From an uncultured Clostridia bacterium (GTDB lineage Bacteria; Bacillota; Clostridia; Oscillospirales; Ruminococcaceae), in contig CANQKW010000008.1 of the NCBI GenBank assembly GCA_947624555.1, positions 1 through 64,000 on the forward strand: a DNA stretch of 64,000 bases, written 5' to 3'. The notes beneath the pieces were generated by a model. The model did not search any database. It was given only the letters and a program-made list of their open reading frames with translations, and was not told the origin of the DNA. Position numbers and translations under genes: made by a program. The stretch's first letter is position 1, and the number at the start of each line of letters is the position of its first letter. This document shows positions 4,890 to 57,603 of this stretch, piece by piece.

Positions 4890-5798
4890 TTATTTGCCGA
4901 AATATCGCAAAAGAGCGGTTTTTTCTTCCTCGGAGAGCGTTTTGCTCCACGGGACTCTGCCTTGGGGCTTTTCGCCGTACTCGGCAAATCTTGCGGTTTT
5001 ATCACGGTCGGTGTCGTTCCACTTATCAAAGCCTTCAGCCGAAATGTGCGAGCCGTATTTGCAATTTATATAAGAGCATTTTCCGTAATCTCTCCAGGGA
5101 CGGGCAAGGAAAATCGAATTGTCTGCGACCGTTTCTTCCGCAGTGAAATTGCACTCGCTGAATACAAAGCCTATCTCCTGCGAAAGACCGTGAGCGGGTG
5201 CCGCCGTATATCCGTGACCTCTTACGTCAAAAAGCGACTTTATCTCGCAATTATCGAACAGCGTATCTCCGCAGCCGAAGATAAAATCAACGTTGCCCGA
5301 AATAAAGCAATTTATGAATATCTGTTTCTGAAAATCGGGAGTGCGAAGTTCGTCTTTTAAAAATCCGTCATATCTTTCGATAAGGTCCGGCGGAAGAGGT
5401 CCGCAGAAAATCGTGTCCTGCGTCGATACAAATGAGCAATTTTCTGCGAGAAATTCGTCTGCGTAAACCGTCAGAGCGACTTCCTGACCTTTGATCTCGG
5501 GATTTTTGGCGTCGTTTTCTATACAGAGATCTTTCATTGTCACTCTCGGCGCAAGCACTGCCGCCGAATATGTGCGGAACGTGACATATTCTAGACCGTT
5601 TTCGTCGATTTTCTTTGCGTAATCGTCGTATATTATCCGTGTTTTATCTGCGCCCTGTCCGATTATCTCCGTATCGGGCACGTTTATCTCGATTTTTTCT
5701 CGGAAATCGCCTTCGGAAAGAACTATTCTCGTATGCGCAGCAGTGCCTTTAAGCGCTTTGTTTATGCTGTCTTTCGGCGTCAAATAAAGCTCGGTCAT
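4890..5798 (-). CDS. Pectin methylesterase, CE8 family, no signal peptide
   Basis: This 302-residue right-handed beta-helix enzyme removes methyl ester groups from galacturonan. CE8 landmarks are present in order: GQEVALTVYAD (104-114), TQDT (126-129) with catalytic-region Q127 and D128, GNVDFIFG (168-175) with D171, and ARPW (232-235) with R233 and W235. There is no signal peptide, so it should act in the cytoplasm on imported methylated oligogalacturonides, matching the signal-less GH28 and GH105 enzymes of the divergent operon. Start 5798 has GGAG about nine bases upstream. It is read divergently from the pectin operon and has its own promoter at 5875-5903. The thyX-like and trpB genes follow. 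Confidence 0.93.
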   Translation of the reverse strand: MTELYLTPKDSINKALKGTAAHTRIVLSEGDFREKIEINVPDTEIIGQGADKTRIIYDDYAKKIDENGLEYVTFRTYSAAVLAPRVTMKDLCIENDAKNPEIKGQEVALTVYADEFLAENCSFVSTQDTIFCGPLPPDLIERYDGFLKDELRTPDFQKQIFINCFISGNVDFIFGCGDTLFDNCEIKSLFDVRGHGYTAAPAHGLSQEIGFVFSECNFTAEETVADNSIFLARPWRDYGKCSYINCKYGSHISAEGFDKWNDTDRDKTARFAEYGEKPQGRVPWSKTLSEEEKTALLRYFGK

Positions 5799-5874
5799 TA
5801 TTATTTCTCCATTATGATAAATTTTAAAAGCATTTCGGAAAAATCTGTTTTTTCCTTTTTCTGCTTACTATATA

Positions 5875-5903
5875 ATAATAAACTTTTTCCGCCCCTTTTT
5901 CAA
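5875..5903 (-). promoter_or_regulatory. Promoter of the pectin methylesterase gene
   Basis: On the minus strand, TTGAAA (5898-5903) and TATTAT (5875-5880) are 17 bp apart, about 75 nt before the start codon. It is in the divergent regulatory region shared with the pectin operon. Confidence 0.7.
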
Positions 5904-6047
5904 GTACTTAATTATCTTTTGTGAAAACTGCACAAAATTTGCTCTCATTTTTTAGCACGTCCCCAAAAACCCCGTTGTTATGCGGATGTAAACGGTGTAA
6001 CGAAAATTTTGATAAATTTCGCCGAATGTATTTATTAGCAATCTCTA

Positions 6048-6076
6048 TTGACTTTTTGAAATTTTTGTGTTAGAAT
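6048..6076 (+). promoter_or_regulatory. Promoter of the 25-kb pectin operon
   Basis: TTGACT (6048-6053) and TAGAAT (6071-6076) are separated by 17 bp. The predicted start is near 6083, immediately upstream of a perfect cre-type operator. Confidence 0.8.
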
Positions 6077-6088
6077 AATAACAATCAG

Positions 6089-6103
6089 TTGAAAACGATT
6101 TCT
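6089..6103 (+). promoter_or_regulatory. Operator 1, cre/LacI-family type
   Basis: TTGAAAACGATTTCT fits the cre consensus WTGNAANCGNWNNCW at every position. It lies just downstream of the predicted transcription start, where bound CcpA or a LacI-family regulator would block elongation or initiation. Confidence 0.65.
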
Positions 6104-6139
6104 GCGCATTTTTTTTAAAAAGTCGACGCAGGTACTGAA

Positions 6140-6153
6140 AGTAATCGTTTACA
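6140..6153 (+). promoter_or_regulatory. Operator 2, LacI-family type
   Basis: AGTAATCGTTTACA is a near-perfect dyad around a central CG, one base off TGTAANCGNTTACA. Its centre is exactly 50 bp from that of operator 1, a distance compatible with cooperative or looped binding. Confidence 0.55.
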
Positions 6154-6205
6154 AGTCTGAGAGCATTTTTGAGCCTGAAACGGCTTTATGAGAGTAGAGT
6201 TCTGA

Positions 6206-6790
6206 ATGGATAAGTCTTTTATCCGCTATAAGGCTATTGATTTGGCATTTTTGGCGGTTATTCTTGCGGTGTTTGAGGCGATAGCCTCGGTTGCCGCAAA
6301 ACAATGGTTCCCGTTACAGCTTTTTTCGCTGTCACCGACGATCACGGTGGTGTGCATTGTGATGATGAGGTGGGGCGGCTGGGCGGCAATACACGCAGTT
6401 GTCGGCGGTCTTTCGTACTGCATAGCGACGGGCGGCGAGCCGAAACAATTTCTGGTGTACTGTGCGGGGAACTGTCTGGCGCTTGTTGCGCTTGTGTTTT
6501 TCAAGTTTTACGGCAAGGAGCGTGTGAGAGGGTCGTTTCTTATGACGGCGGCGTTTGCACTTACCGCTTTTTTCGGCGCAATAGTCGGAAGGTGGCTTAT
6601 AAGCCTTTGCTTTGATTTTGATTTGCTTTCTATAGTCGATTTTTTCGTCGCTGACTCTTTGACGCTTTTGTTCACTGTGGTCGTGGTATTGATTTCGAGA
6701 AAGCCCGACGGTCTTTTTGAGGACCAGAAAGCATATCTTATAAGAACGGAAGATGAACGAAAAAGGCGCTCGGAAGACGAGCTTGACTGA
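6206..6790 (+). CDS. Integral membrane protein resembling an ECF-transporter S component
   Basis: This 194-residue protein has about six hydrophobic helices (roughly 13-31, 37-55, 59-76, 82-99, 109-135, 142-163) and a charged cytoplasmic tail ending EDERKRRSEDELD. Size, helix number and the pattern of small glycine-containing loops resemble ECF-type S components, but no diagnostic substrate motif is visible and no ECF T or A subunits are nearby. It is the first gene of the pectin operon, about 120 bp after the predicted start, and has only a weak ribosome site. A role in uptake or in regulating the adjacent ABC transporter is inferred from position only. Confidence 0.6.
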   Translation: MDKSFIRYKAIDLAFLAVILAVFEAIASVAAKQWFPLQLFSLSPTITVVCIVMMRWGGWAAIHAVVGGLSYCIATGGEPKQFLVYCAGNCLALVALVFFKFYGKERVRGSFLMTAAFALTAFFGAIVGRWLISLCFDFDLLSIVDFFVADSLTLLFTVVVVLISRKPDGLFEDQKAYLIRTEDERKRRSEDELD

Positions 6791-6849
6791 TTTTATACTT
6801 TGATTTACGGCTTTATTTTGATATAAATTTCTTTTAGGAGGTTTGAAAG

Positions 6850-7908
6850 ATGCAAGCAGTTTGCAGCGACTACCTGATTTTCGACGAAGAAAACGGCGTC
6901 TACGTCGAAAACCCCGAACAGGTCGTTCGGGATGATGTTGAAAAGCATCACTGGCTGAATGTCTTCAGAGCGGTGGTGAAGGACTGGCGTCTATACCTGA
7001 TGCTGGTTCCGATGATTTTGGTGTTCCTTTTCTGGCGTTATTTCCCGATGTACGAGCTGTTGGGATGCTTTAAGGTTACCGATGTGGTAAAGCCTGTTTC
7101 TGACCAGTTCTATTCGGGTTTCTCGTACTTTAACACCTTGATTTTCGGCGAAGGCAATCCCGGTATCTCGGCAGATTTCTGGAGAGCTTTCAGAAACACC
7201 TTCCTGCTGAGCTTTTACGGACTGTGTTTCGGTTTCCCTATGCCGATTATCATTGCGCTGTTCTTCAATGAAGTGCGTTCAAACGTAATGAGAAGTATCT
7301 ATCAGGTAATTACTTACCTCCCCAAGTTCATGTCAACAGTCGTTATGACTTCGCTGGTTATGATGCTTGTTAAGCAGGGTTCTACCACGTCCGGTATGGG
7401 TATTCTTTCTCAGTTCCTCGTTGCTATCGGTGCGGTTGACCAGCAGACGGCATTCGGAGGACTGCTGAACGACCCGACGTTCTTCAGAGGAATTTACCAG
7501 ATAAGCGGTATCTGGGAAACGGCCGGTTACGACAGTATCGTGTTCTTCGCAGCGATAATCGCTATTGCGCCGACTCGTTATGAGGCTGCACAGATAGACG
7601 GCGCAGGAAAGATGGCTCAGATGAGATATGTCGTTCTTCCGAGCATACTTTCCACGATCATCATTATGCTTATCACAAAAATCGGTACTTTGCTGAACAT
7701 CGGATACGAAAAAGTCTTGCTTTTGTACAACCCCAAAACATATATGACCGCCGATGTCGTTTCAACATTCTCACAGAGAAACGGTATTGCGGGTACAATG
7801 CAGGGAATGGCGTCCGCAGCAGAAATGATGAATAACGTTATAGGAATGCTGTTGGTTATCGGTGCAAATACGATAGCGCGCAAGGCGTCCAACACTTCTC
7901 TATATTAA
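6850..7908 (+). CDS. ABC sugar transporter permease, LplB/YteP type (CUT1)
   Basis: This 352-residue inner-membrane permease belongs to the family that imports oligosaccharides, notably oligogalacturonides and rhamnogalacturonan fragments in Firmicutes. A soluble N-terminal extension of about 45 residues precedes the first helix (LYLMLVPMILVFLFW). The EAA loop that docks the ATPase reads YEAAQIDGAGKMAQMRYV. ATG 6850 has AGGAGG nine bases upstream. The partner permease follows after 12 bp and the binding protein after that, giving a standard permease-permease-lipoprotein order. The N-terminal extension is longer than in typical LplB proteins. Confidence 0.93.
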   Translation: MQAVCSDYLIFDEENGVYVENPEQVVRDDVEKHHWLNVFRAVVKDWRLYLMLVPMILVFLFWRYFPMYELLGCFKVTDVVKPVSDQFYSGFSYFNTLIFGEGNPGISADFWRAFRNTFLLSFYGLCFGFPMPIIIALFFNEVRSNVMRSIYQVITYLPKFMSTVVMTSLVMMLVKQGSTTSGMGILSQFLVAIGAVDQQTAFGGLLNDPTFFRGIYQISGIWETAGYDSIVFFAAIIAIAPTRYEAAQIDGAGKMAQMRYVVLPSILSTIIIMLITKIGTLLNIGYEKVLLLYNPKTYMTADVVSTFSQRNGIAGTMQGMASAAEMMNNVIGMLLVIGANTIARKASNTSLY

Positions 7909-7920
7909 AGAGGTTAATGT

Positions 7921-8811
7921 ATGAAAAGAAGACTTGAAATTTCAGAGCTTATCTTTAAGATAATAAGCTATACTTTGCTTACGGTGTTTGCAATCTGCTG
8001 TCTGTATCCGTTTATTTACACGATTTCCGCATCAATGAGCGGACGTCACGCAGTAGAATATAACGACCTGGTTCTTCTTCCGAAGGATATTCAGTTCGAC
8101 GCATTCTCCGAAATGTTTAACAGCAATATGTTTTGGAACTCCTATGCGAACACGCTCTTCCTTACGTTCTACGGAACGATCTGGGAAGTCGGCTTGTCAA
8201 TTCTCGGCGCTTACGCTCTTTCCAAAAAGCGTTTGCTCTTCCGCAAGGGTTTCAACTTCTTCCTCGTTTTCACAATGTGGTTCAGCGCAGGTATGGTTCC
8301 TCAGTATCTGAACTATATCGAAACGAAAAAGGTATTCAATGCGATAGGAATTATGGACGACAAGTGGCTCGTTGTTATCGCAATGGGTATGGCGGCTATG
8401 AACATAATCCTCTTGAGAAACTCGTTTGAGGGCGTTCCCAGCGAGATCGAAGAGGCGGCAATAGTCGACGGCGCAACGGAAATGCAGGTACTTACCAAAG
8501 TGTATGTTCCGATGAGCAAGTCCATTATCGCAACGGTTTCACTGTTCTTCGGTATTTCGCGTTGGAACGGTTACTTCTGGGCAAGACAGATGATTTCCAA
8601 CGGTCACGAGCATCCGCTGATGGTTTATATCCGTCTGAGGCTTGAGGATTACACTAACCCCGAAGTTATGGCGGGCTGGAACAAGACTTATGCGACGGAC
8701 TCGGCTATTTACGCAATGATCATTTGCTCGATAGTTCCTATCCTCGTAATCTATCCTTTTATTCAGAAGTACTTCGCTAAGGGCGTAAACGCAGGCGGCG
8801 TAAAGGGATAA
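7921..8811 (+). CDS. ABC sugar transporter permease, LplC/YtcP type (CUT1)
   Basis: This 296-residue second permease has six predicted helices. The N-terminal segment is LLTVFAICCLYPFIYTIS and the EAA loop is IEEAAIVDGATEMQ followed by LTKVYVPMSK. It ends with the C-terminal IQKYFAKGVNAGGVKG, closely matching the LplC/YtcP family end. It forms the membrane channel with the upstream permease. The ribosome site is AGAGG, and the gap to the upstream gene is 12 bp. Confidence 0.94.
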   Translation: MKRRLEISELIFKIISYTLLTVFAICCLYPFIYTISASMSGRHAVEYNDLVLLPKDIQFDAFSEMFNSNMFWNSYANTLFLTFYGTIWEVGLSILGAYALSKKRLLFRKGFNFFLVFTMWFSAGMVPQYLNYIETKKVFNAIGIMDDKWLVVIAMGMAAMNIILLRNSFEGVPSEIEEAAIVDGATEMQVLTKVYVPMSKSIIATVSLFFGISRWNGYFWARQMISNGHEHPLMVYIRLRLEDYTNPEVMAGWNKTYATDSAIYAMIICSIVPILVIYPFIQKYFAKGVNAGGVKG

Positions 8812-8856
8812 AATCGTTGTCAATACGCATATTATGTGCGGTTGATATATAAAAAA

Positions 8857-8870
8857 CGGACATATGTCCG
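8857..8870. other. 14-bp perfect palindrome upstream of the binding-protein gene
   Basis: CGGACATATGTCCG lies 38 bp before the binding-protein start, in the 97-bp gap after the permease gene. It could be a protein operator or an mRNA processing/stability hairpin that raises binding-protein yield. Which one cannot be told from sequence. Confidence 0.4.
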
Positions 8871-8908
8871 AAGGTATTTTAACAGATATTCCTAAAAGGA
8901 GGAAAACA

Positions 8909-11110
8909 ATGAAAACATCTAAGATTGCTGCTTCGGTTATGGCAGCAGTACTCGCGAGTGCAACACTTCTTACAGGTTGTAGTACTCCGGGTGAGACCAG
9001 CAACGACTCCGGCAACACATCAAGCTCCGGCGATACAAGCACTTCAAGCGGAAGCGGCGAAAGCAGCTCTGCTGAGGTAGAGGCACCTAAGCTCGAATAT
9101 GCTGACGGTACAACTCTTCGCATGGCTACAGGTTACAACAACCCCAACACAGGTATTTCTTTCGACGCTGAAACAGCAGGAAGCGGAATTACTCTTGCTG
9201 ACGGAAACACCTACCACACAGGCGAGCTTAAGCCTACCTGGAAAGAGCTTGAGAACGTTCTCAAGGTTTCTTTTGAAGACAAGTTCACAGGTGCAGGCAG
9301 CTCTTCCAAGGAGTGGGCTTACTGGAAGGAAAGACTTAACGAAATCGACATGGTTTCCGTTCCCGCAAGCACAGCTAACGAGGCAGGTTCCGCAGGTCAG
9401 CTCGTAAACATCGCTGAGTACCTCGACAGCATGCCTAACTTCAAGAAGTACCTTGAAGAGAACCCCATCGTTCGTCTTTCAATCACAGGTTCTACTTCCG
9501 GTTCAACAAAGGGCGCTATCTACTTCTCGCCTTACTTCGACGGCGTAAACGATATCGAGCGTATGCCTTTGATGAGAGTTGACTGGGTACAGAAGCTCCT
9601 CGACGGCGAGGGCGAATTTACTGCTGACGCAGCAGGCACAACAAAGACACCCGTTTATACTCCTTATATGCCTACTTCGGGCAAGGTTACTGTTGATGTA
9701 GTTAAGCTTGATGGCTCAGGCACTGAGACTGTTACTAAGGACTACGATACAGCAGGAAACATCGTTCAGAAGATGAACGACGCAGGCGCTATGGGCGGCG
9801 TTGAGGCTGTTAATATGCTCCGTAAGTATATCGATGAAGCTTACGGCGGATACTACGGAACAAATCGTTCTAACCTCTTCATTGGTCAGAACGCTGCTTG
9901 GGACGTTGATGAGCTTGTTGCTCTCGTTCGCTGCGTAATTTCTAACGCACCGACACTTAACGGCACTAACAGCATTCAGGGTATCTTCTCTCGTGAGGAC
10001 TCTAACAACCAGCGCCGTGTTGATATGTTCCGTTTCGCAGGAACTCTCTTCGGTGTTCGCGGTCTTGAGTCCCGCCAGGATTACCTCTATTTAGGCACTG
10101 ACGGCAAGCTCCACGATGCTCGTATGGAGGCTGATACCTATGCAGCTCTCGCAAAGATGCACGAGATGGCTCAGGAAGGTCTTATTGCAGAGTCCTTCAT
10201 CAACTCTTCCGGTGAGAACTCCGGTACAATGCTTGAAAACGACATCGGTTTCATGCACTATGACTACAACCAGACACAGACCATTCTTAACAAGACTAAG
10301 CTCCAGGAAGGCGAAAAGTATATGGCAGTAATGGTTCCTGTTGCTAAGTGGGACGACGGCGATTCTTCGACTCCCGATTACTTCAGATTCACCGAGTCTT
10401 GGCGTTCTGTTAAGACTGATGGTTGGGCACTTTCTAAGGCAGGTATCGGCGATGATACCAACAAGCTCAATGCTTGTCTTGCTCTCATCGACTATGCATA
10501 CAGCCCTGAGGGTCAGATTCTTATGTCTTACGGTCCTGACGCATTCATCAAGCATGATGCAAGCGGCAACATCGTAACCTTCAACTTCAACGGCGAGCAG
10601 TGGCCTGAGATCTCTGATGCAACTGAAGCAGAGCTTTGGGACAAGGCAAGCGGTAACTACACCAACTATGCACGTTTCTACCTCGGTTCTACTCTGAGCT
10701 TTGTAAAGAGCCAGTCCTTCGAGTATGAGTGCACACACGAAGTTGGTAGAGAAGGTGCAGGATATATCTCTACAGCAATCGGTCTTGGTACTATCAAGCA
10801 CCCTGAGCTTGCTATCACAGAGAATCCTTGGTACACCTCTATTCCTACCGTTCTTCCTACAACAAAGGTTGAGAACGATAAGATCGCAGAGTTCGCAGAG
10901 CTCGGCAACAGCGGTAAGTTCGGTTCCGGTAAGGATCAGGAGAACCTCTTCTGCGATATCATCGTAGGCGGCTTTAGCGGTGAGGGCACATCTTCTGCAG
11001 CTGAAACTGTTGAAACTGTAAAGACTGCATGGCACTGCGACCAGTATCTCCAGCTCAAGCAGGGCGCATGGGATAAGCTTGTTGTATTCTATAATGAGAT
11101 TAACAGCTAA
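8909..11110 (+). CDS. Large extracellular solute-binding lipoprotein of the sugar ABC transporter
   Basis: This 733-residue lipoprotein is longer than usual for CUT1 binding proteins (400-570). The signal peptide KIAASVMAAVLASATLLTGC ends in the LTGC lipobox. A Ser/Gly/Thr-rich tether of about 40 residues follows, then the mature domain. ATG 8909 is chosen because AAAGGAGGAAAA lies just upstream and the signal peptide begins there; an earlier frame start at 8864 lacks a ribosome site. It should capture oligosaccharides, probably pectin fragments, at the cell surface for the two upstream permeases. Codon use is strongly biased to GCT/CTC/AAG types, suggesting very high expression, and a 9-bp GC-rich hairpin follows it. 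Confidence 0.9.
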   Translation: MKTSKIAASVMAAVLASATLLTGCSTPGETSNDSGNTSSSGDTSTSSGSGESSSAEVEAPKLEYADGTTLRMATGYNNPNTGISFDAETAGSGITLADGNTYHTGELKPTWKELENVLKVSFEDKFTGAGSSSKEWAYWKERLNEIDMVSVPASTANEAGSAGQLVNIAEYLDSMPNFKKYLEENPIVRLSITGSTSGSTKGAIYFSPYFDGVNDIERMPLMRVDWVQKLLDGEGEFTADAAGTTKTPVYTPYMPTSGKVTVDVVKLDGSGTETVTKDYDTAGNIVQKMNDAGAMGGVEAVNMLRKYIDEAYGGYYGTNRSNLFIGQNAAWDVDELVALVRCVISNAPTLNGTNSIQGIFSREDSNNQRRVDMFRFAGTLFGVRGLESRQDYLYLGTDGKLHDARMEADTYAALAKMHEMAQEGLIAESFINSSGENSGTMLENDIGFMHYDYNQTQTILNKTKLQEGEKYMAVMVPVAKWDDGDSSTPDYFRFTESWRSVKTDGWALSKAGIGDDTNKLNACLALIDYAYSPEGQILMSYGPDAFIKHDASGNIVTFNFNGEQWPEISDATEAELWDKASGNYTNYARFYLGSTLSFVKSQSFEYECTHEVGREGAGYISTAIGLGTIKHPELAITENPWYTSIPTVLPTTKVENDKIAEFAELGNSGKFGSGKDQENLFCDIIVGGFSGEGTSSAAETVETVKTAWHCDQYLQLKQGAWDKLVVFYNEINS

Positions 11111-11209
11111 TCAGACTTAAAGGCAAACCAATCGAATGCGACGCGGCGCAGAAGTCCGCGAAATACGGATAATGCGCAGTGACGCAAGAATCCACATTAT
11201 GTTGTTGCG

Positions 11210-11231
11210 AAGGGGAGGAATCCCTCCCCTT
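11210..11231 (+). other. GC-rich hairpin after the binding-protein gene
   Basis: AAGGGGAGG and CCTCCCCTT pair perfectly over 9 bp around AATC, with no U-run afterwards. It lies in the 147-bp gap 3' of the binding-protein gene. This arrangement usually stabilises the upstream mRNA and partly lowers downstream expression. The rest of the gap shows nothing else clear. Confidence 0.6.
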
Positions 11232-11257
11232 CCATCAATATAAAAAGGAAGGTCTTT

Positions 11258-11884
11258 ATGTATAAAAATCAAATGAAATTTCAGAAGATAATATGCTATC
11301 TTATGCTTTTGGCATCGGCTATCGTATTTCTTTATTCTTTAGGTTTTGTAACCGATATGTATGACAGCCTTTATCTCACAATGACCGATCCTGAGGATTT
11401 GTCTGTTACAAGCGTTGAAGGCTCTCAGATTTACTATGAAGTTCAGGGTTATGACCCTGCAACAAATGACTTTACAAACCCAAACTTTAATGCCATGCTT
11501 ACTATGGCGGGAATTGGTTTGATCGTCGTTAATTTGGTTTTGTTTATTACCTGCACCCACTCTCGCAGAAAATACTATATAGGTAATTTCGTGGCAGTGG
11601 CTTTGTCTACGGCAAGCAGTGTTGTGGTCTCTGCCTGGGGAATTATGAACGTTTCAGCGTTTAAGGAAAAATTCCTTCAGATCGATTTCGAGGCGCTTAA
11701 GGCTCATTCTGAAATGTGGGACACCGCTTACATCGACTCAACCTTCTGGTTTGACGCCGCTTATTTCGTATTCGGTTTCCTTATGCTTATTACGGTTTTG
11801 CTTGTCGTCAATTTGGTTTTGAAATTAATCGTGATGAAGAAAGAGAAGAGTCTTATCGGCAGCAGAAAGGATGTTACAGCATGA
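11258..11884 (+). CDS. Unrecognised four-helix membrane protein A in the pectin locus
   Basis: This 208-residue protein has about four helices (near 12-33, 86-105, 113-135, 165-190). The extracytoplasmic loop of about 50 residues after helix 1 is rich in Asp, Thr and Tyr, and the tail is basic. No family motif was recognised. The ribosome site AAGGAAGG precedes ATG 11258. Its last four bases overlap the next start codon (ATGA), so translation is coupled to protein B and then to an ABC ATPase. The position suggests an accessory membrane subunit of the sugar uptake system; that is inference. Confidence 0.75.
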   Translation: MYKNQMKFQKIICYLMLLASAIVFLYSLGFVTDMYDSLYLTMTDPEDLSVTSVEGSQIYYEVQGYDPATNDFTNPNFNAMLTMAGIGLIVVNLVLFITCTHSRRKYYIGNFVAVALSTASSVVVSAWGIMNVSAFKEKFLQIDFEALKAHSEMWDTAYIDSTFWFDAAYFVFGFLMLITVLLVVNLVLKLIVMKKEKSLIGSRKDVTA

Positions 11885-12426
11885 CAACCACAAATAATAT
11901 TGCCGTAATTAAAAAAGATCGCCTGCGTTATTCCAAAAATAAGCTTTCATCGGGACTTGCTTTGCTTGCTATAGTGTTTAACGCTCTCTACTTCGTCAGT
12001 ATATATAGGTCCGATGTAGGAACGTATTACTACACCTGGCAGATTGGACTTTCGGTCCTTTATAACCTTGTCTACATGCTGGCAACGTTCCTTTCTTCTG
12101 AGGGCGTTAAAAACTACAAGATCGGCTATTCCTACGTTTTAATGATTGTGGGACTTCTTCAGATTGTACGTGTGTTCTATATCCCACTTTCGGCAAGGAA
12201 TACAACTGACCCCACGCTTACTGCTGATGTAATCGCAGATTTGACTGCAAAAGGCTCCAGTGTGCCTACCGTTATGGACAATTTGCAGTTCCTGCTGTGT
12301 GCAGGCTTCCTTGTTGCGTCTGCTGCTCTTATGATTTTTGCGGGCGTGATTGCGTTTATAAAAACCACGACTCTTACTAAATATCAGGCAGAGCTCGATA
12401 AAAAATCAAGAGGGAGTAAGTCATGA
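11881..12426 (+). CDS. Unrecognised four-helix membrane protein B in the pectin locus
   Basis: This 181-residue protein has about four helices (near 23-42, 55-75, 85-104, 137-160). A short loop follows helix 1, and a roughly 30-residue Thr/Asp/Ala-rich loop lies before helix 4. The C-terminal tail is charged and ends KKSRGSKS. The start overlaps the stop of protein A by ATGA, and its stop overlaps the start of the ATPase gene by ATGA. No family was recognised. Its helix layout resembles that of protein C (13499-14077), suggesting paralogy. Confidence 0.75.
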   Translation: MTTTNNIAVIKKDRLRYSKNKLSSGLALLAIVFNALYFVSIYRSDVGTYYYTWQIGLSVLYNLVYMLATFLSSEGVKNYKIGYSYVLMIVGLLQIVRVFYIPLSARNTTDPTLTADVIADLTAKGSSVPTVMDNLQFLLCAGFLVASAALMIFAGVIAFIKTTTLTKYQAELDKKSRGSKS

Positions 12427-13484
12427 GTGATCTTAAATTACAGCATCTTGAAAAAATTTATGATAACAAGGTACAGGCTGTTTACGACTTCAATCTGAAT
12501 GTTAAAAACGGTGAGCTTATTGTACTTGTTGGACCTTCGGGCTGCGGTAAGTCCACAACTCTTCGTATGGTTGCAGGTTTGGAGGACATTACTTCTGGTA
12601 ATCTTATAATCGACGGCAAGGACGTTACCAAAATGCCGCCTAAAGACCGCGATATTGCGATGGTTTTCCAGGATTATGCCCTGTACAGCCATATGACTAT
12701 TTACGAGAATATGGCGTTCTCGCTTATGCTCCGTAAGGAAAATAAGAATGAGATACATCAGAAGGTTCTCGCTGCGGCTGAAATTCTCGGTCTTACAGAC
12801 CAGCTTAACAAAAAGCCCGACCAGCTTTCGGGCGGTCAGCGTCAGAGAGTTGCAATGGGACGTGCAATCGTTCGTACGCCTAAGGTATTCCTCTTCGACG
12901 AGCCGCTTTCAAACCTCGACGCTAAGCTCAGAGGCGCAACGAGAAGAGAAATTCTCCTCCTGCATAAGCGCCTGAGAGCTACGATGCTTTACGTTACGCA
13001 CGACCAGACAGAGGCTTTGACGCTTGCAGACAGAATTGTATGTATGTCTATGGGCTATGTTCAGCAGATCGGTACACCTCTTGAGCTGTACGATTCTCCC
13101 GCAAATATCTTCGTTGCAACGTTTATCGGTTTGCCGCCGATGAATTTGTTTGATGTGACGGTTCAGGACGGAAAACTTTACTGCGACGATTTCAGCATCG
13201 ACCTTGACAACGAAGAAAAACAGCTGCTGGCTAAGTATGAAGGCAAGCAGATCGTTCTTGGCGTTCGTCCTGAGAATGTTGAGAAGGGCGGAAATGTCAC
13301 TGTTTCCATATTCTCAAATGAAAACCTCGGTCAGACTACTCTTGTAAACGGTGTTATCGGTAAGCACAAGATTACCTGTAAGTTCCGTGAATGGAGCACC
13401 TTTAAGCCTGGCGATACGGTAAATGTTTCCTTTACAAGAAAGCATTTCTTTGATAAAGAAAGTACCGAAGCTATTAGTTTTTGA
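12423..13484 (+). CDS. ugpC: Sugar ABC transporter ATPase, UgpC/MsmX type (first copy)
   Basis: This 353-residue nucleotide-binding subunit has Walker A GPSGCGKST (near 38-46), signature LSGGQRQRVAMGRA and Walker B VFLFDEPLSNLDAKLR. The H-loop is YVTHDQTEA, and a C-terminal regulatory (MalK/TOBE-type) domain follows from about 235. This family energises CUT1 oligosaccharide importers and is often shared between several. Here it is translationally coupled to membrane protein B upstream and sits 14 bp before membrane protein C. Its C-terminal domain is shorter than that of the second ATPase at 24719-25831. The ugpC name reflects family annotation, not glycerol-phosphate specificity. Confidence 0.94.
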   Translation: MSDLKLQHLEKIYDNKVQAVYDFNLNVKNGELIVLVGPSGCGKSTTLRMVAGLEDITSGNLIIDGKDVTKMPPKDRDIAMVFQDYALYSHMTIYENMAFSLMLRKENKNEIHQKVLAAAEILGLTDQLNKKPDQLSGGQRQRVAMGRAIVRTPKVFLFDEPLSNLDAKLRGATRREILLLHKRLRATMLYVTHDQTEALTLADRIVCMSMGYVQQIGTPLELYDSPANIFVATFIGLPPMNLFDVTVQDGKLYCDDFSIDLDNEEKQLLAKYEGKQIVLGVRPENVEKGGNVTVSIFSNENLGQTTLVNGVIGKHKITCKFREWSTFKPGDTVNVSFTRKHFFDKESTEAISF

Positions 13485-13498
13485 TAAGGAGAAGTCAG

Positions 13499-14077
13499 AT
13501 GGGACAAAATAAAGTATCCGCTGCACCGAGGCGGGGTTTTAAGGAACATTTTCGTAAGTTCCTTGTATCTCTAAAGCGTAAGCCGCAGAATATCGCTCTG
13601 ATTATTCTCGCTGTCGGATTTGTGTATTTCTCGCTTAATCTTACAGCAATTTCGGATACGACTGCGCTTATTAACACGGACAATATGGGTCAGTGCGAAT
13701 TCGGTATGATGCTGTTTTCGATTCTGTCCTTTGTAATCTTCCTAAGAACGTTTCCAAAGCGTCAGAAAGTAAAAATTCCTGCGCTTATTCTTACGTTTGT
13801 GTTCCTGCTGCTCGTAATATTCTTGGATGTAGTTTATCTGATGAGAATTAACGAGGCTCTTACGAAAGAGGGCAGCAACATCAGTATTACGAATTCGACA
13901 ATGTATATTTCATCGGCTTGGACAACTTTGAATGTGTATTTGGTTTTCCTTTGTGTAGTTGTTGTTTTGCTTGCTACACTTCCGATTTATTCTAAGCTCC
14001 TCAAGAAAATCAACACTTCAATTGATATCGAAGGCAATGAAAATATGGCAGCAATCGATATTTCGGGCGAGGACTAA
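13499..14077 (+). CDS. Unrecognised four-helix membrane protein C in the pectin locus
   Basis: This 192-residue protein has a basic N-terminus (RRGFKEHFRKFLVSLKRKP), four predicted helices (near 32-52, 66-84, 94-116, 140-162) and an acidic tail. ATG 13499 is preferred to the TTG at 13481 because AAGGAG lies eight bases upstream. The short loop after helix 1 and the Asn/Ser/Thr-rich loop before the last helix mirror protein B. No family was recognised. It directly follows the UgpC-type ATPase. Confidence 0.75.
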   Translation: MGQNKVSAAPRRGFKEHFRKFLVSLKRKPQNIALIILAVGFVYFSLNLTAISDTTALINTDNMGQCEFGMMLFSILSFVIFLRTFPKRQKVKIPALILTFVFLLLVIFLDVVYLMRINEALTKEGSNISITNSTMYISSAWTTLNVYLVFLCVVVVLLATLPIYSKLLKKINTSIDIEGNENMAAIDISGED

Positions 14078-14090
14078 TTTAAACTTTTCT

Positions 14091-14128
14091 GAAAGCAGCA
14101 TCAGCCGCACAAGGGTGTTGCTGCTTTC
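14091..14128 (+). terminator. Weak terminator or processing hairpin
   Basis: GAAAGCAGCA pairs with the later TGCTGCTTTC, but the following sequence (ATTGTAAAATAGGGC) has only a delayed T-run. It marks the end of the A-B-ATPase-C module and may only partly terminate. Confidence 0.45.
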
Positions 14129-14185
14129 ATTGTAAAATAGGGCTTTTTTGGTCCTTGGTTATGGTTATGTTAAATCAGGTGTTTT

Positions 14186-14821
14186 ATGGCTGAAAAAAAA
14201 GAACTTGACAGAGATGACGAGCAGCTTAGGGATTACTATAATCTTAAAACCGACGCGGTCGACAGACTTCTGAATGCTAAAAATGCGCCCGAAGTTTCCG
14301 TCAAGGAAATCAATATGTACAAGGGAAAGGCAGGCAAGCGCGTTTTTCCTACATGGTTAAAAATTCTCGGAGTTAAATTTTGGTTCGGAGGAGCAATCTG
14401 CTACTTCTTCCTGTGGGGTCTGGGGCTGTATCTTGCAAATCTCGACCTTCTGGTGGCTCTTGCAATAGGTCTGGGTCTTTGTACGGACCTTTTGGTGAAC
14501 AATCTGCTAAAGTACTTTGAGCCCGAAAAGCGTATCTACGACAAGTGGATGATGGTGACAGTAAGAAAATGGTGGTCGATTTTCCTCAATATTATTTATT
14601 CGGGAGTGCTGCTGTTCTTTATTGTGCAGTTCTACGAGGTCGTTAACGGACTGATCACGGGTCAAAGTGCGGAAAATGCACAGAGCGTGCCTGTTCCTGT
14701 TGAGCCTTTACTGTTCGGCTTGCTTTATATGGGCTTTGATATGCTGTTTATATTCATCAAGAATATGGTGGTCAAGGCGTTTCGTGACGCCGAGGCAAAA
14801 GTTTCTAATTCAAGAAGATAA
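14186..14821 (+). CDS. Unrecognised membrane protein D in the pectin locus
   Basis: This 211-residue protein has a charged, soluble N-terminal segment of about 55 residues (KKELDRDDEQLRDYYNLKTD) and roughly four helices (near 60-80, 84-104, 128-150, 168-192). The ribosome site is weak. It may belong functionally with membrane proteins A-C, but its N-terminal domain and longer spacing set it apart. It is 27 bp upstream of the GH28 gene. No family was recognised. Confidence 0.72.
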   Translation: MAEKKELDRDDEQLRDYYNLKTDAVDRLLNAKNAPEVSVKEINMYKGKAGKRVFPTWLKILGVKFWFGGAICYFFLWGLGLYLANLDLLVALAIGLGLCTDLLVNNLLKYFEPEKRIYDKWMMVTVRKWWSIFLNIIYSGVLLFFIVQFYEVVNGLITGQSAENAQSVPVPVEPLLFGLLYMGFDMLFIFIKNMVVKAFRDAEAKVSNSRR

Positions 14822-14848
14822 CGGGTGATTGACCCGAAGGAGATACAG

Positions 14849-16390
14849 ATGGTCAACGTATTATATGTCGGCACGGTTTCCGCCTGCTTTGAGCTGGAAA
14901 ACAACCTGCCTTACTACAGCGAAAAAGAATATACCGTAATTTTGGACGGCGTTGAGGTTATGAAAGCAAATACCAACGTCTTTTCGATGTTTTCGCTTAA
15001 ACCCGGAAGAGAGTATGAGCTTGCTGTCACGGGAAACGAGCCTGTTAAGTTTACAACGAAAAAGGAAACCTGCGCTTTGAATGTAAAGGATTTCGGCGCT
15101 GTAGGCGACGGCGCTCACGATGATACAATGAATATCCAGACAGCGATAAACTGTTTGCCTGCGGGAGGCAGACTGTACTTCCCGGAGGGAATTTACAGCG
15201 TTGCTCCTCTTAATCTGAAAAGTCACATAACGCTTGATCTTTCGGAGGGTGCGGTTCTTCTCGGTACGACCGAGGAAAATAAGTATCCGATTATTCCCGG
15301 TGAGCTTAAAGATATTGAAACAGGCGAGGAAGTGCCGCTCGGCTGCGTTGAAGGTAATGCGGTTCCTATGAACCAGAGCGTTATTTTTGCAGAGTATGCG
15401 GAGGATATAACCATTACCGGCAAGGGCGTGATCGACGGAAACGCACAGAATGGTCAGTGGTGGGTAAACGTAAAGGAACGTGTTATCGGCAGACCTAATT
15501 TGCTGTTTATGAACCGCTGCAAGGACATTGTGGTTCACGGAATTACAGGCCAGAATGCCGCTATGTGGCAGCTGCACCCGTATTTCTGCGATAATGTGAG
15601 GTTCCTTGACCTTGCAATCAATGCTCCGAAGGACAGCCCGAATACGGACGCCTGCGACCCCGAAGCTTGCGACAATGTCGATATAATCGGCTGCAGATTC
15701 AGCGTCGGCGACGACTGTATCGCTATAAAATCGGGCAAAATTGAAATAGGCAGGAAGTACAAGACTCCTGCAAATCACCACACGATAAGAAACTGCATTA
15801 TGCAGTTCGGTCACGGAGCTATCACTCTCGGAAGTGAAATGGCAGGCGGAGTTAAAAATCTCACCGTAAACCGCTGCATTTTCAATCACACAGACAGAGG
15901 ACTTCGCATAAAAACTCGCCGAGGAAGAGGCAAGGACGCTGTTATTGACGGTGTTTTGTTTGAAAATATCAAAATGGACGGGGTTCTTACTCCTATTGTT
16001 ATCAATATGTGGTACAATTGCTGCGATCCCGACAGGTTCTCCGAGTACAACACTACCCGTGAGAAACTTCCTGTTGACGACAGGACGCCGTATCTCGGAA
16101 AGTTCTGCTTTAAGGATATGGTTTGCGAGAATTGTCACGTTGCAGCCTGCTATTGCGACGGACTTCCGGAAATGCCTATCGACGAGATAACCGTGGAGAA
16201 TTTGAAGTTTACCTATGACCCGAACGCTGAACCGAATTTCCCTGCAATGAGAAACAACAATGAAAAAATGTGCAGGGCAGGTATGTATTTTGACAATGTA
16301 AACAAGCTCACCGTGAAGAATGTGGAAATGACAGGAAACGACGGAGAGCAGCTTATAGTGAAAAACGTAGGCTCTTTGAACAAGGAGTAA
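14849..16390 (+). CDS. GH28 polygalacturonase-family hydrolase, cytoplasmic
   Basis: This 513-residue enzyme has an N-terminal beta-sandwich-like segment of about 85 residues followed by a right-handed beta-helix. All GH28 signatures are present: NTD (265-267), DD (288-289) in GDDCIAIKSG, GHG (H322) in GHGAITLGSEMAGG, and RIK (353-355). It hydrolyses alpha-1,4-galacturonosyl bonds, probably exo-acting on imported oligomers, because there is no signal peptide. ATG 14849 is chosen because GAAGGAG lies nearby; an upstream start at 14825 lacks one. GH105 follows after 2 bp. Rhamnogalacturonan or xylogalacturonan specificity is also possible within GH28. Confidence 0.93.
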   Translation: MVNVLYVGTVSACFELENNLPYYSEKEYTVILDGVEVMKANTNVFSMFSLKPGREYELAVTGNEPVKFTTKKETCALNVKDFGAVGDGAHDDTMNIQTAINCLPAGGRLYFPEGIYSVAPLNLKSHITLDLSEGAVLLGTTEENKYPIIPGELKDIETGEEVPLGCVEGNAVPMNQSVIFAEYAEDITITGKGVIDGNAQNGQWWVNVKERVIGRPNLLFMNRCKDIVVHGITGQNAAMWQLHPYFCDNVRFLDLAINAPKDSPNTDACDPEACDNVDIIGCRFSVGDDCIAIKSGKIEIGRKYKTPANHHTIRNCIMQFGHGAITLGSEMAGGVKNLTVNRCIFNHTDRGLRIKTRRGRGKDAVIDGVLFENIKMDGVLTPIVINMWYNCCDPDRFSEYNTTREKLPVDDRTPYLGKFCFKDMVCENCHVAACYCDGLPEMPIDEITVENLKFTYDPNAEPNFPAMRNNNEKMCRAGMYFDNVNKLTVKNVEMTGNDGEQLIVKNVGSLNKE

Positions 16391-16392
16391 CA

Positions 16393-17520
16393 ATGTACGA
16401 GAAGATTGACAGATATATTGACAAATTGCTGGAAGGCTCAACGCCCGACGCACCTCTCTGGAATATCGAGAGCATAAGACAGGGCAAAAAGCCGAGCTGG
16501 AACTATATTGACGGCTGTATGATCACTGCGCTTTTGTGCGCAAGCGAAATTACGGGCGAGAAGAAATATTTCGATTTCGCAGAAAATTTCATTGATTACT
16601 ATGTTTCCGAGGACGGTTCTATTCTCGGATACGAAAAGGAAAAGTTTAACCTTGATGACGTAAACGAGGGCAAGGTGCTTTTTGAGCTGTACGAGAAAAC
16701 AGGCAAGGAGAAGTACAAAAAGGCGATTTTCCTGCTTGAAAGTCAGCTTGAGGACCAACCCAGGACGGTTACGGGAAATTTCTGGCATAAGAAGATCTAT
16801 CCAAATCAGATTTGGCTTGACGGTCTTTATATGGGACAGGTTTTTTCCGCTCTCTTCAAGAAATATTTCGGCGATAAGAATTATTCCGATGTGGTAGAAC
16901 AGTTCAAGAACGTGAGAAAGCTGATGTTCGATGAGGACAAGAAACTGTATTATCACGGCTGCGACTGCTCGAAGAAGGCTTTTTGGGCAGATAAGGAAAC
17001 AGGACGCTCGAAAAATTTCTGGCTGAGAGCTATCGGTTGGTTCTGTATTTCGCTTATTGATAATATTGATTATATCGACGACGAAAAAGCTAAGGCAGAG
17101 CTTTCGGCTATCTTCAAGGAGGCTGTCGAGGGTATTTCGCAGTACGCCGACCCCGAAACCTCAATGTATTATCAGGTAGTCGACAGGGGCGGCGAAGAGG
17201 GCAACTACCTCGAAACAAGCGGCAGCTCGATGATAGCTTATGCCATGATGAAGGGCGCAAGACTCGGAGTTCTCGATAAGAAGTACGCCGAATTCGGCAG
17301 AAAAACTTTTGACGGAATTTGCAATAAATATCTCTCCATAAGCGAGGACGGCGAGCTTAATCTCGGCGGCATATGCCTTGTTGCGGGTCTTGGTCCCGAG
17401 GACAACAAGCGCCGCGACGGCTCTTATGAGTATTACATTTCAGAACCTGTTGTGGAAAATGACGCAAAGGGCGTTGCACCGTTTGTACTGTGCTACACCG
17501 AAGTCAAGAGAATGGGCTGA
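16393..17520 (+). CDS. GH105 unsaturated (rhamno)galacturonyl hydrolase
   Basis: This 375-residue cytoplasmic (alpha/alpha)6-barrel enzyme of the YteR/YesR type removes the 4,5-unsaturated uronic acid from the non-reducing end of pectin-lyase products. Recognisable blocks are PSWNYIDGCMITALL (near 35-49), YPNQIWLDGLYMGQ (near 136-149) with the catalytic-region Asp, and FWLRAIGWF (near 210-218). The released unsaturated uronate feeds KduI and KduD encoded downstream. It starts 2 bp after GH28, with AAGGAG within the GH28 end. Confidence 0.92.
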   Translation: MYEKIDRYIDKLLEGSTPDAPLWNIESIRQGKKPSWNYIDGCMITALLCASEITGEKKYFDFAENFIDYYVSEDGSILGYEKEKFNLDDVNEGKVLFELYEKTGKEKYKKAIFLLESQLEDQPRTVTGNFWHKKIYPNQIWLDGLYMGQVFSALFKKYFGDKNYSDVVEQFKNVRKLMFDEDKKLYYHGCDCSKKAFWADKETGRSKNFWLRAIGWFCISLIDNIDYIDDEKAKAELSAIFKEAVEGISQYADPETSMYYQVVDRGGEEGNYLETSGSSMIAYAMMKGARLGVLDKKYAEFGRKTFDGICNKYLSISEDGELNLGGICLVAGLGPEDNKRRDGSYEYYISEPVVENDAKGVAPFVLCYTEVKRMG

Positions 17521-24718: not shown

Positions 24719-25831
24719 ATGTCATTTTTAACATTAAGAGGAATCAACAAAATTTACCCGAACGGCTTTCACGCCGTACACGATTTCAATCTGGAGATTG
24801 AAAAAGGTGAGTTCATCGTATTCGTAGGCTCTTCGGGCTGTGGAAAATCAACCACTCTGCGTATGATTGCCGGTCTTGAAAACATCAGCAACGGCGATTT
24901 CCTGATCAACGGCGAGAGAGTAAACGAAAAGGGTCCCCGTGAGAGAGGCGTTGCAATGGTTTTCCAGAGCTATGCGCTTTATCCCCATATGACCGTTTAT
25001 GATAACCTTGCTTTCGGTCTTACTCTTCAGGGCGTTGACGACGACGTTATCGAGGAAAAGGTCTATGCAACGGCTAAAATCCTCGGTCTTACCGATTATC
25101 TCGACAGATTCCCCCGTGCGCTTTCGGGCGGTCAAAGACAGAGAGTTGCAGTCGGACGTGCCATTATCCGTAAGGTTGACATATTCCTTATGGACGAACC
25201 GCTCTCTAACCTTGACGCAAAGCAGAGAGTTACCATGCGTGCGGAAATCACACAAATTCACCGTCAGACGGGCGCCACTACGATTTATGTAACTCACGAC
25301 CAGACTGAGGCTATGACAATGGCTGACAGAATAGTCGTTATGAAAGAGGGTTACATTCAGCAGGTCGGTACACCGTATGATTTGTACTTCAATCCTGTTA
25401 ATATGTTCGTTGCAGGATTTATCGGCGAGCCTCCGATGAACTTTATCGAGTCCAAAGTCAAGGACGGAAAGCTCAATATCAGCGGAAACATTATCGACCT
25501 TCACGCTATTGCCGCTAAAGATGTAATTGATAAGTACGAGGGCGAGGAACTGGTTCTCGGTTTCCGTCCCGAGGCAATTAAGCTCGCAAACAGCGGCGAT
25601 GTCCGCAGAGCATTCACTATTAAGTGCGCTGTCGAGCTTACTGAGCTGCTCGGCGATAATACCAACGTTTATGTTGATATTCAGGGCGTTAAAACTATCC
25701 TTAAAGTCGATCCGCATGATTCTCCCGCAATAAACGAGGAACTTCTGTTCGCTATTCCTTTCGAGAACGTTTACCTCTTCGATAAGGCAACAGAAAAGCG
25801 TATTAAATTCGATTTGATTGCGGCTGAGTAA
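24719..25831 (+). CDS. ugpC: Sugar ABC transporter ATPase, UgpC/MsmX type (second copy)
   Basis: This 370-residue ATPase has Walker A GSSGCGKST, signature LSGGQRQRVAVGRA, Walker B IFLMDEPLSNLDAKQR, H-loop YVTHDQTEAM and a full MalK-like regulatory domain. It is the conventional partner for the LplB/LplC-type permeases, which lack their own adjacent ATPase. It is more complete in its C-terminal domain than the first copy at 12423-13484. The presence of two different ATPases in one catabolic locus suggests division of labour. GGAG precedes ATG 24719. Confidence 0.94.
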   Translation: MSFLTLRGINKIYPNGFHAVHDFNLEIEKGEFIVFVGSSGCGKSTTLRMIAGLENISNGDFLINGERVNEKGPRERGVAMVFQSYALYPHMTVYDNLAFGLTLQGVDDDVIEEKVYATAKILGLTDYLDRFPRALSGGQRQRVAVGRAIIRKVDIFLMDEPLSNLDAKQRVTMRAEITQIHRQTGATTIYVTHDQTEAMTMADRIVVMKEGYIQQVGTPYDLYFNPVNMFVAGFIGEPPMNFIESKVKDGKLNISGNIIDLHAIAAKDVIDKYEGEELVLGFRPEAIKLANSGDVRRAFTIKCAVELTELLGDNTNVYVDIQGVKTILKVDPHDSPAINEELLFAIPFENVYLFDKATEKRIKFDLIAAE

Positions 25832-25843
25832 AAATAGCAAAAA

Positions 25844-27244
25844 ATGTCAAATTCAATTGTAAGCGAAAAGGACCGTAAGCGAAGAGAGTTTATTCTGACC
25901 GGCAACCCTATGGCTGTCGTGCTGCATATCTCCCTTCCGCTTATGGCTCTTGGCGCATTTTCTTATATCAGCAGCATTATTGATACGATCGTTGTATCTA
26001 CCACGGATAACCAGGCGCTTTCCAGCGTTGTTATGATCTCTCAGATAAAGGCGCTTATCTCGGCGCTGGGCGGAGGTTTTGCAACAGGAAGCTCGATTAT
26101 CGTTTCCCGACTGATAGGGCGCGGCGAATACGACAAGGCGAAGAAAGCGGCAAATACCACGATTATGCTTTTCTTCATCGTAGCGGTAGTGCTTATTGGA
26201 CTTTTACAGGTGTTTGCAGTAGAGATACTCAGGGTCGGCAGGCTTGACGATGATATGATAGCTATGGGCTTGGGTTATTTCCGTGTGCAGATTTTCTCAC
26301 TCGGCGTGGGAATGTTCAACTCGGTGTTTATGGGACTTGAAAAATCCAGAGGCGCTATGGTGAACATTACCGTTATAAATATCACGTCAATGGTGCTGAA
26401 ACTGGCATTTACCGTTATATTTGTAAATATAATGGGCTTGGGTACAACTTGGGTCGCAGCAGGAACGCTTTGCGCCGATTTGTCGGTTACAACGTATGCT
26501 GTGGTCAATTTGTTCCGCAAAAAGTATCTGTTTAAGTTCAACGCAAGGGAAACAATGTTCACAAGGGAGTTTTTCAAGCCGCTTTGCTCAATGTCCATTC
26601 CCGTGAGCCTCGGAAAGTTCGTATTTTCTATGGGTAAGGTCATTGTAAACGGTCTGGCAAAGGACTATTACGGCGGAGATGCGCCCGGCGCTCTCGGCGT
26701 TTCCAACCAGATAAGCGGTGCGGTTACTCACCTGACGACATACAGCGAGGACGCAGAAAGCTCTATCATAAGCTATAATCTGTCCAACAAGTATTATTCG
26801 CGTATGATAAAGGTTTTTTTCTGCACTCTGTCGGTGAACCTTATAATTACATCAATCGGATTTTTACTGCTGACGATATTTAAAGCGCCGCTTTCGATGT
26901 TTTTTGCGGACGGAAATCCCGAAAAAGCAGAGCTTATCGCAAAAATCTTCGGATTTGAGAGCATCGGCATTATCGCTCTCGGCGTCAATTCGGCAGTAAA
27001 CGGTCTGATTTACGGATTGGGATATACAAAGCTTTCAATGGTGGTCAATCTGTCCCGCCTTTTTGTGTTCCGAATTCCTTCAATGCTGATAATGATAAAC
27101 TGTTTCCCCGAAATCGGCGCAGAGAGCCTCGGTATCGCAATGCTCATTTCAAACGTCGGTATCGGACTTATGTCGGTGGTTATAGGCATTGTTTGCCTGT
27201 TGAATATCAAAAACCATAAAACTAAAGATAATGTGAAATTATGA
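25844..27244 (+). CDS. MATE family transporter within the pectin operon
   Basis: This 466-residue, 12-helix MATE protein has the early segment YISSIIDTIVVSTTDNQ. It is in a different subgroup from the other two MATE genes in the window. There is no clear ribosome site (AGCAAAAA before ATG 25844), so translation may be coupled to the ATPase gene 12 bp upstream. Its place between the ATPase and uxaB suggests export of a pathway by-product or a plant compound co-released with pectin; this is inference. Confidence 0.88.
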   Translation: MSNSIVSEKDRKRREFILTGNPMAVVLHISLPLMALGAFSYISSIIDTIVVSTTDNQALSSVVMISQIKALISALGGGFATGSSIIVSRLIGRGEYDKAKKAANTTIMLFFIVAVVLIGLLQVFAVEILRVGRLDDDMIAMGLGYFRVQIFSLGVGMFNSVFMGLEKSRGAMVNITVINITSMVLKLAFTVIFVNIMGLGTTWVAAGTLCADLSVTTYAVVNLFRKKYLFKFNARETMFTREFFKPLCSMSIPVSLGKFVFSMGKVIVNGLAKDYYGGDAPGALGVSNQISGAVTHLTTYSEDAESSIISYNLSNKYYSRMIKVFFCTLSVNLIITSIGFLLLTIFKAPLSMFFADGNPEKAELIAKIFGFESIGIIALGVNSAVNGLIYGLGYTKLSMVVNLSRLFVFRIPSMLIMINCFPEIGAESLGIAMLISNVGIGLMSVVIGIVCLLNIKNHKTKDNVKL

Positions 27245-55350: not shown

Positions 55351-55401
55351 GATAATCGGGATTAAAATATTTGAAAATGCTCCTTAGGAGATGATTTTTT
55401 G

Positions 55402-57468: not shown

Positions 57469-57505
57469 AGCCTGTTTTAGCGCTGTATCAGTAAAATATT
57501 TCATC

Positions 57506-57534
57506 TTGACAAAAAATGCGGGATTTGTTATAAT
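57506..57534 (+). promoter_or_regulatory. Promoter of hybrid kinase 3
   Basis: TTGACA (57506-57511) and TATAAT (57529-57534) match consensus with a 17-bp spacer, and an extended TG precedes the -10. Kinase 3 therefore has its own strong start. Confidence 0.9.
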
Positions 57535-57603
57535 AAATCATAGTTTTGTTATAAATGCAAACTTCGGTGTATGTATACAAACAGTTGGTAAAGGAGAGAC
57601 GTT

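Follow-up and report, generated by a model that had tools for sequence, protein, structure and literature searches.

A predicted LplBC-type importer with accessory membrane proteins and two ATPase lineages in a pectin-associated locus of an uncultured Clostridia bacterium

What do four small membrane proteins, interleaved with an ATP-binding cassette (ABC) ATPase of the UgpC/MalK type, contribute to a pectin-associated gene cluster? The question was raised by a 64,000-nt stretch from an uncultured Clostridia bacterium (positions 1 to 64,000 of contig CANQKW010000008.1; hereafter the window), in which the proteins, A to D, and the ATPase, ATP1, are encoded at 11258-14821. An earlier interpretation, hereafter the sequence-only reading, had proposed that A, B, C and the ATPase form either a separate transporter or an accessory assembly for the uptake of large oligosaccharides. 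Our analysis upheld the accessory half of this proposal and spoke against the other half. The locus probably encodes one importer that depends on a solute-binding protein (SBP) and on the permeases LplB and LplC (LplBC), with A to D and a further membrane protein, Z, as dedicated accessory subunits. It would belong with the CUT1-like type I importers of the LplABC/AlgM1M2 kind, have additional membrane subunits and take up acidic oligosaccharides, here most likely oligogalacturonides. The genes concerned are the following.

6206-6790, forward strand: Z, first gene of the run, a 194-residue membrane protein with a predicted energy-coupling factor (ECF) S-component fold
6850-7908, forward strand: LplB, an AlgM1-like permease (PF00528) with an EAA loop at residues 245-264
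7921-8811, forward strand: LplC, an AlgM2-like permease (PF00528) with an EAA loop at residues 178-197
8864-11110, forward strand: SBP, a large solute-binding protein whose LTGC resembles a lipobox (by eye)
11258-11884, forward strand: A, a 208-residue four-helix membrane protein
11881-12426, forward strand: B, a 181-residue four-helix membrane protein
12423-13484, forward strand: ATP1, a UgpC/MalK-type ATPase with intact catalytic motifs
13499-14077, forward strand: C, a 192-residue membrane protein of four helices whose cytoplasmic tail is conserved
14186-14821, forward strand: D, 211 residues, with a hydrophilic N-terminus followed by four helices
24719-25831, forward strand: ATP2, a second UgpC/MalK-type ATPase

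The ATGA stop-start overlaps between A and B and between B and ATP1, as well as the 14-bp gap between ATP1 and C, lay exactly where the sequence-only reading had put them. Its view that the permeases and the second ATPase are encoded elsewhere in the locus did not hold for the permeases, as LplB, LplC and SBP (6850-11110) lie directly upstream of A in one gene run. The 4-nt overlap of A and B was kept in 11 of the 15 loci showing both genes (window counted) and that of B and ATP1 in 5/14 loci; C and D are spaced by 108 bp, with a hairpin inside the gap. Since the ratio of nonsynonymous to synonymous rates (dN/dS) against two relatives was at most 0.15 in all comparisons with an estimable dS (dS was saturated in 4/12), these genes are, judged from their sequences, real coding genes.

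Relatives were examined by profiles in 20 loci from 17 other genomes; the conserved arrangement occurs in records labelled Clostridia, Lachnospiraceae, Oscillospiraceae, Ruminococcus and Acetatifactor. The loci had been located by A, C, SBP or ATP2 queries, so that the other genes found in them count as independent evidence. The order Z-LplB-LplC-SBP-A-B-ATP1-C-D was complete in 10 of the 20 loci, as in the window; of the remaining loci, nine are truncated at contig ends and one, in genome G788 (locus L080), is divergent. GH28 followed D in 11 of the 20. Wherever the contig extends far enough on the relevant side, all confident relatives adjoined LplBC and SBP. The relatives of A to C were not found mostly away from ABC ATPases. 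Within the order of the window's genome, A was present in 5 of 245 genomes (the window's included) and SBP in 6 of 240, namely the same five and G119. Among 200 genomes of a second family (that of L008, labelled Lachnospiraceae), C gave five strong matches and SBP was found in those five and in G788. A in the one sample and C in the other were therefore present only in SBP genomes, and all 12 of the other operon genomes counted had exactly one copy of C. With a broad D profile, 164 second-family genomes yielded four strong matches, none of them new (G788 and G793 not among them), and a whole-phylum B profile found the window's genome alone (1/348). The whole-phylum C profile (7/348) added six short matches (E values 0.0013-0.0095, four with internal stops), which were dropped, as were a partial C match in G642 (E 1.9e-4; 8.8 kb seen without an importer gene) and a partial D match in G641 (E 2.8e-4).

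The divergent locus of G788 encodes, in order, Z', LplB (44% identity), LplC (56%), SBP (26%), A', B', one ATPase, a small protein and D'. The relations of its membrane proteins were recognizable at E values of 0.0011 for A', 4.3e-6 for B', 7.6e-17 for D' and 2.5e-12 for Z' (nominal 20,000 sequences). Its sole ATPase occupies the ATP1 position, and about 39 kb contained no second one of the UgpC/MalK kind. Downstream of D' come proteins of the DUF4962 and heparinase II/III types (L080:14474-18404), which point to another uronate polysaccharide. As G788 keeps the plan with one ATPase, the importer plan is probably older than the pectin operon and workable with a single ATPase, and this uronate-type locus suggests a wider importer class.

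The best solved relatives of the permeases were AlgM1 for LplB (E 3.5e-61) and AlgM2 for LplC (E 2e-75), and the EAA ATPase-docking loop was found in both by motif search. In LplB, 38 N-terminal residues (6850-6963) precede the AlgM1-aligned part, which starts at residue 39; they might serve as an additional docking element. In one other genome two frames make up LplC (L012:4616-5492), through either a real break or an assembly error. The SBP profile matched AlgQ1/AlgQ2 at 3.4e-21 (AlgQ1) and weaker, while neither Pfam nor a single-sequence PDB search gave a match. The lipoprotein may start at an internal ATG near 8909. SBP-like domains of 52% and 41% identity were also seen in proteins of 1087 and 1181 residues in G151 and G119 (L033:3226-6489 and L034:2513-6058), with no permease genes within the stretch seen; these are perhaps surface pectin-binding proteins.

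The sequence-only reading had described A, B and C as proteins of about four helices and D as carrying a soluble N-terminal domain. Four hydrophobic segments were indeed present in each of A, B and C, and also in D, whose hydrophilic N-terminus spans 64 residues. The charge pattern of A to C clearly fits both ends inside; the fit of D was less clear. None of the four reached a Pfam or NCBIfam cut-off, and their profiles gave no match among PDB sequences at E values up to 1. With E values up to 1 allowed, Pfam gave 0 matches for A, 0 for B, 7 for C and 1 for D, and the YesL membrane-protein family (DUF624) was not among these. DUF6057 was matched weakly by 7 of 12 C members (best E 5.1e-4), and window C scored 13.3 bits, under the cut-off of 29.8; C may thus be a distant relative of this family. 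Other weak Pfam matches, below or without a shown cut-off, were TgpA_N in 3/12 A, PelG in 3/11 D and DUF7937 in 1/11 B members (best E 8.9e-5). A common origin of A, B and C as paralogues was dropped, as the A-B, A-C, B-C and A-D profile comparisons were unsupportive (probability under 2%).

The predicted structure of A (AF2) had a mean predicted local distance difference test (pLDDT) score of 87.7, and its extracytoplasmic loops measure about 49 and 40 residues. Conserved columns were concentrated in the outer loops (17/89) and the cytoplasmic parts (16/43), with fewer in the helices (10/76). The outer surface carries the conserved motifs TDxYD, FN and FWFD and a short inner loop carries RRKYYIxN. 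These data bear on the possibility that A to D and Z stay outside the working complex and serve the importer as factors for assembly, quality control or signalling. Co-inheritance and operon position would suit such factors equally, and no structural relative indicates a function of A; however, the conservation of A is that expected of a spanning subunit, and the window proteins yielded no regulatory domain above a Pfam or NCBIfam cut-off. We consider this explanation unlikely.

Could A, B, C and perhaps D instead form a separate transporter with ATP1, leaving ATP2 to power LplBC? In favour of this stand the conservation of two distinct ATPase lineages in the system, the position of ATP1 with B and C on either side, and that of ATP2 directly 5' of Z-LplB-LplC in G119. 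However, the EAA loop was absent from A to D and Z, and the motif was found in 0/12 A, 0/10 B and 0/11 C members, a test that covers EAA-type docking only; the one loose partial match, in window C, is sited in a predicted outer loop. The middle cytoplasmic loops of window A to C have just 9-13 residues. The search for an ATPase-docking helix, made by motif and topology and for A also by structure, thus spoke against a separate transporter, as did the constant neighbourhood of LplBC and SBP and the single ATPase of G788, which stands in one run with LplBC. This arrangement appears quite improbable, and the fixed gene order, the co-occurrence and the adjoining pectin enzymes lend the accessory assembly good support.

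Both ATPases exceeded the NF008653 cut-off of 432 bits (ATP1 448.9, ATP2 447.7), the OB domain PF17912 was found in the MalK-family ATPases here, and the Walker, Q-loop, signature and His motifs were intact in both (alignment, by eye). In the window, ATP1 shares 50% identity with ATP2, whereas the identity within each group, in the window and eight loci with both, was 74-93% for ATP1 and 72-92% for ATP2. They formed separate clades beside the orphan multitask type in a tree without an outgroup root and with several low inner supports. Among 240 genomes, 45 had an ATP2 match at E values up to 1e-110, of which six at 75-100% identity were exactly the six SBP genomes (that of G119 matched over 242 residues only) and 39 stood at 50-55%. 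Of the 14 operon genomes with an examinable genome or sufficient flank, 13 showed ATP2 and G788 did not; in four others the sequence stops short. By sequence, ATP2 is a separate, intact lineage co-inherited with SBP. A MATE-family transporter gene lies between ATP2 and a UxaB-like gene in the window (24719-27244) and in L062, L063 and L083; in L014 and L053, KduI rather than MATE directly follows ATP2.

Since the closest ATP2 relatives are confined, among the 240 genomes examined, to those with SBP, the importer may use two different ATPases. The window's genome holds three ATPases of the UgpC/MalK type, with five other matches at 36-38% identity. Besides LplBC, it has one permease pair of the same class with no ATPase adjoining, and a further pair on contig C3 near another ATPase. 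The orphan ATPase on contig C29 would be the natural partner of the ATPase-less pair; if it serves that pair, ATP1 and ATP2 are left for the LplBC system. Among solved structures, MsmX ranked second for ATP1 and first for ATP2, and ATP1 matched AlgS at 4e-99. Four MsmX positions (D77, R104, E110 and K154) are tied to multitask use in the available text of PMC7658222. None of them survives in ATP2 (13 sequences); in ATP1 (14 sequences) three are retained and E110 varies. As the set was fully conserved in neither, assignment to the MsmX-type multitask ATPases was rejected. The simplest reading, which we advance tentatively, is a mixed ATP1/ATP2 pair on LplBC; alternatively, ATP2 might be a reserve ATPase or work with a different permease.

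Neither Pfam nor NCBIfam matched window Z, which lies directly 5' of LplB in 13 of the 20 loci, the divergent G788 among them. In a search with its predicted structure (AF2, pLDDT 89.9), ECF S-components, including ThiT, RibU and PanT, ranked best, above one MreD chain (9.6) and metal-transporter chains (about 9.3-9.7), and the S-component fold of the model is clear. In ECF transporters, a small-xxx-small motif of the S-component contacts EcfT. That Z works as an ECF-type S-component is very improbable despite this fold, because Z keeps its place before LplB, its helix 1 has no such motif common to at least 7 of 14 rows, the operon holds no EcfT-like protein of the CbiQ family (the genome was not searched for EcfT), and ATP1 and ATP2 are of the UgpC/MalK type with an OB domain, unlike ECF-family ATPases.

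Two gaps of the run contain predicted RNA structure.

11137-11249, forward strand: two strong RNA hairpins in the SBP/A gap (minimum free energy -55.9 kcal/mol, z -7.5)
14091-14128, forward strand: RNA hairpin in the C/D gap (minimum free energy -34.4 kcal/mol over 14070-14190, z -2.2)

All 12 other loci that were folded likewise have a hairpin in the SBP/A gap (z -2.5 to -7.2), with dissimilar sequences between distant loci; L007, L011 and L053 also span this gap and lie outside the folded set. Other importer operons use dose control to make SBP in excess, and the SBP/A hairpins would likewise keep SBP above the membrane subunits. Rfam at gathering scores found nothing in 5800-15000. Pattern counts for promoters (20 against 12.6, standard deviation 3.3) and for terminators (14 against 9.2, standard deviation 3.2) were not used as evidence.

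The substrate context is given by three neighbouring genes.

4890-5798, reverse strand: pectinesterase, divergent from the operon (PF01095, 1.3e-35)
14825-16390, forward strand: GH28, polygalacturonase family (PF00295, 7.3e-37)
16393-17520, forward strand: unsaturated-uronyl hydrolase type (PF07470, 6.7e-89)

Downstream of D, the GH28 and uronyl hydrolase genes are followed by GH4 and later by KduI-like and KduD-like genes, and further on by genes to which Uxa and Kdg names were assigned by eye. Because inspection by eye revealed no evident signal peptide in the GH28 protein, the uronyl hydrolase or the pectinesterase, pectin fragments would be imported intact, perhaps methylated. Far from the run, three consecutive large open reading frames at 52399-60186 (983, 689 and 860 residues, by eye) perhaps encode hybrid sensor kinases.

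In the importer that we propose, the LplB-LplC channel would receive the oligosaccharide from SBP, import would be driven by MalK-family ATPases through the EAA loops of both permeases, and A, B, C, D and Z would be packed around LplBC as integral subunits. The outer surface of A, with TDxYD, FN and FWFD, would receive SBP or steer a long charged ligand, and the short inner loop (RRKYYIxN in A) and tails would face the ATPases. The sequences themselves show the gene order, the co-inheritance, the EAA loops of both permeases and the lack of such loops in A to D and Z, the intact motifs of the two ATPases and the predicted fold of Z; we infer the physical complex, the substrate and the role of each accessory subunit. 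The full form of this model, a hybrid of about ten subunits with LplBC, a mixed ATP1/ATP2 pair, four four-helix accessories and an S-component-like subunit, is doubtful; if true, a long charged chain would pass from SBP over a membrane subunit to the channel, with ATP1 and ATP2 docked to different permeases.

Several points weigh against the accessory-subunit reading. It builds on predicted structures of single chains, not of complexes, and the structure search with A returned generic four-helix bundles alone (best Foldseek E 0.15), with no confident family listed, an outcome that by itself rules nothing out. In G119, A was not found, and C-D-GH28 and ATP2-Z-LplB-LplC are on different contigs; in G788, the small protein in the place of C has no statistical relation to C. 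The SBP/A hairpins might separate two expression units. ATP1 may not be restricted to the operon, as the search for it covered the window's own genome only. Finally, according to the available text of PMC5730181, Bacillus subtilis imports pectin fragments with an SBP, two permeases and a shared ATPase, so that extra subunits are not needed in principle.

How does the importer compare with known systems? In the available text of PMC7658222 the class is described as an SBP, two permeases and two ATPase subunits, the ATPase sometimes being shared, and a search of titles and abstract openings, with subscription journals mostly uncovered, gave nothing on such a module. This is weak evidence that the subunit set is new within a known kind of importer; no curated family describes the set. 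If the accessory-subunit reading is true, the class can carry accessory subunits, here five dedicated membrane proteins, one of them with the S-component fold of vitamin importers, alongside two dedicated ATPases, which would offer a handle on the uptake of large charged pectin fragments by such anaerobes. The YtcQP-YteP and YesOPQ systems of B. subtilis, with MsmX, likewise combine an SBP with two permeases for galacturonate oligomers and MsmX-like ATPases (PMC5730181, available text). The alginate importer of Sphingomonas sp. A1, AlgM1-AlgM2-AlgS with AlgQ1/AlgQ2 (PDB 4tqu and relatives), is matched here in all four component types. In the available text of PMC9314435 it is written AlgM1M2SS, with two AlgS, and imports the acidic polysaccharide alginate. 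The present locus differs from AlgM1M2SS in its five additional membrane proteins and its second lineage of ATPases, and its gene content argues against a complex of two identical ATPases without further membrane subunits.

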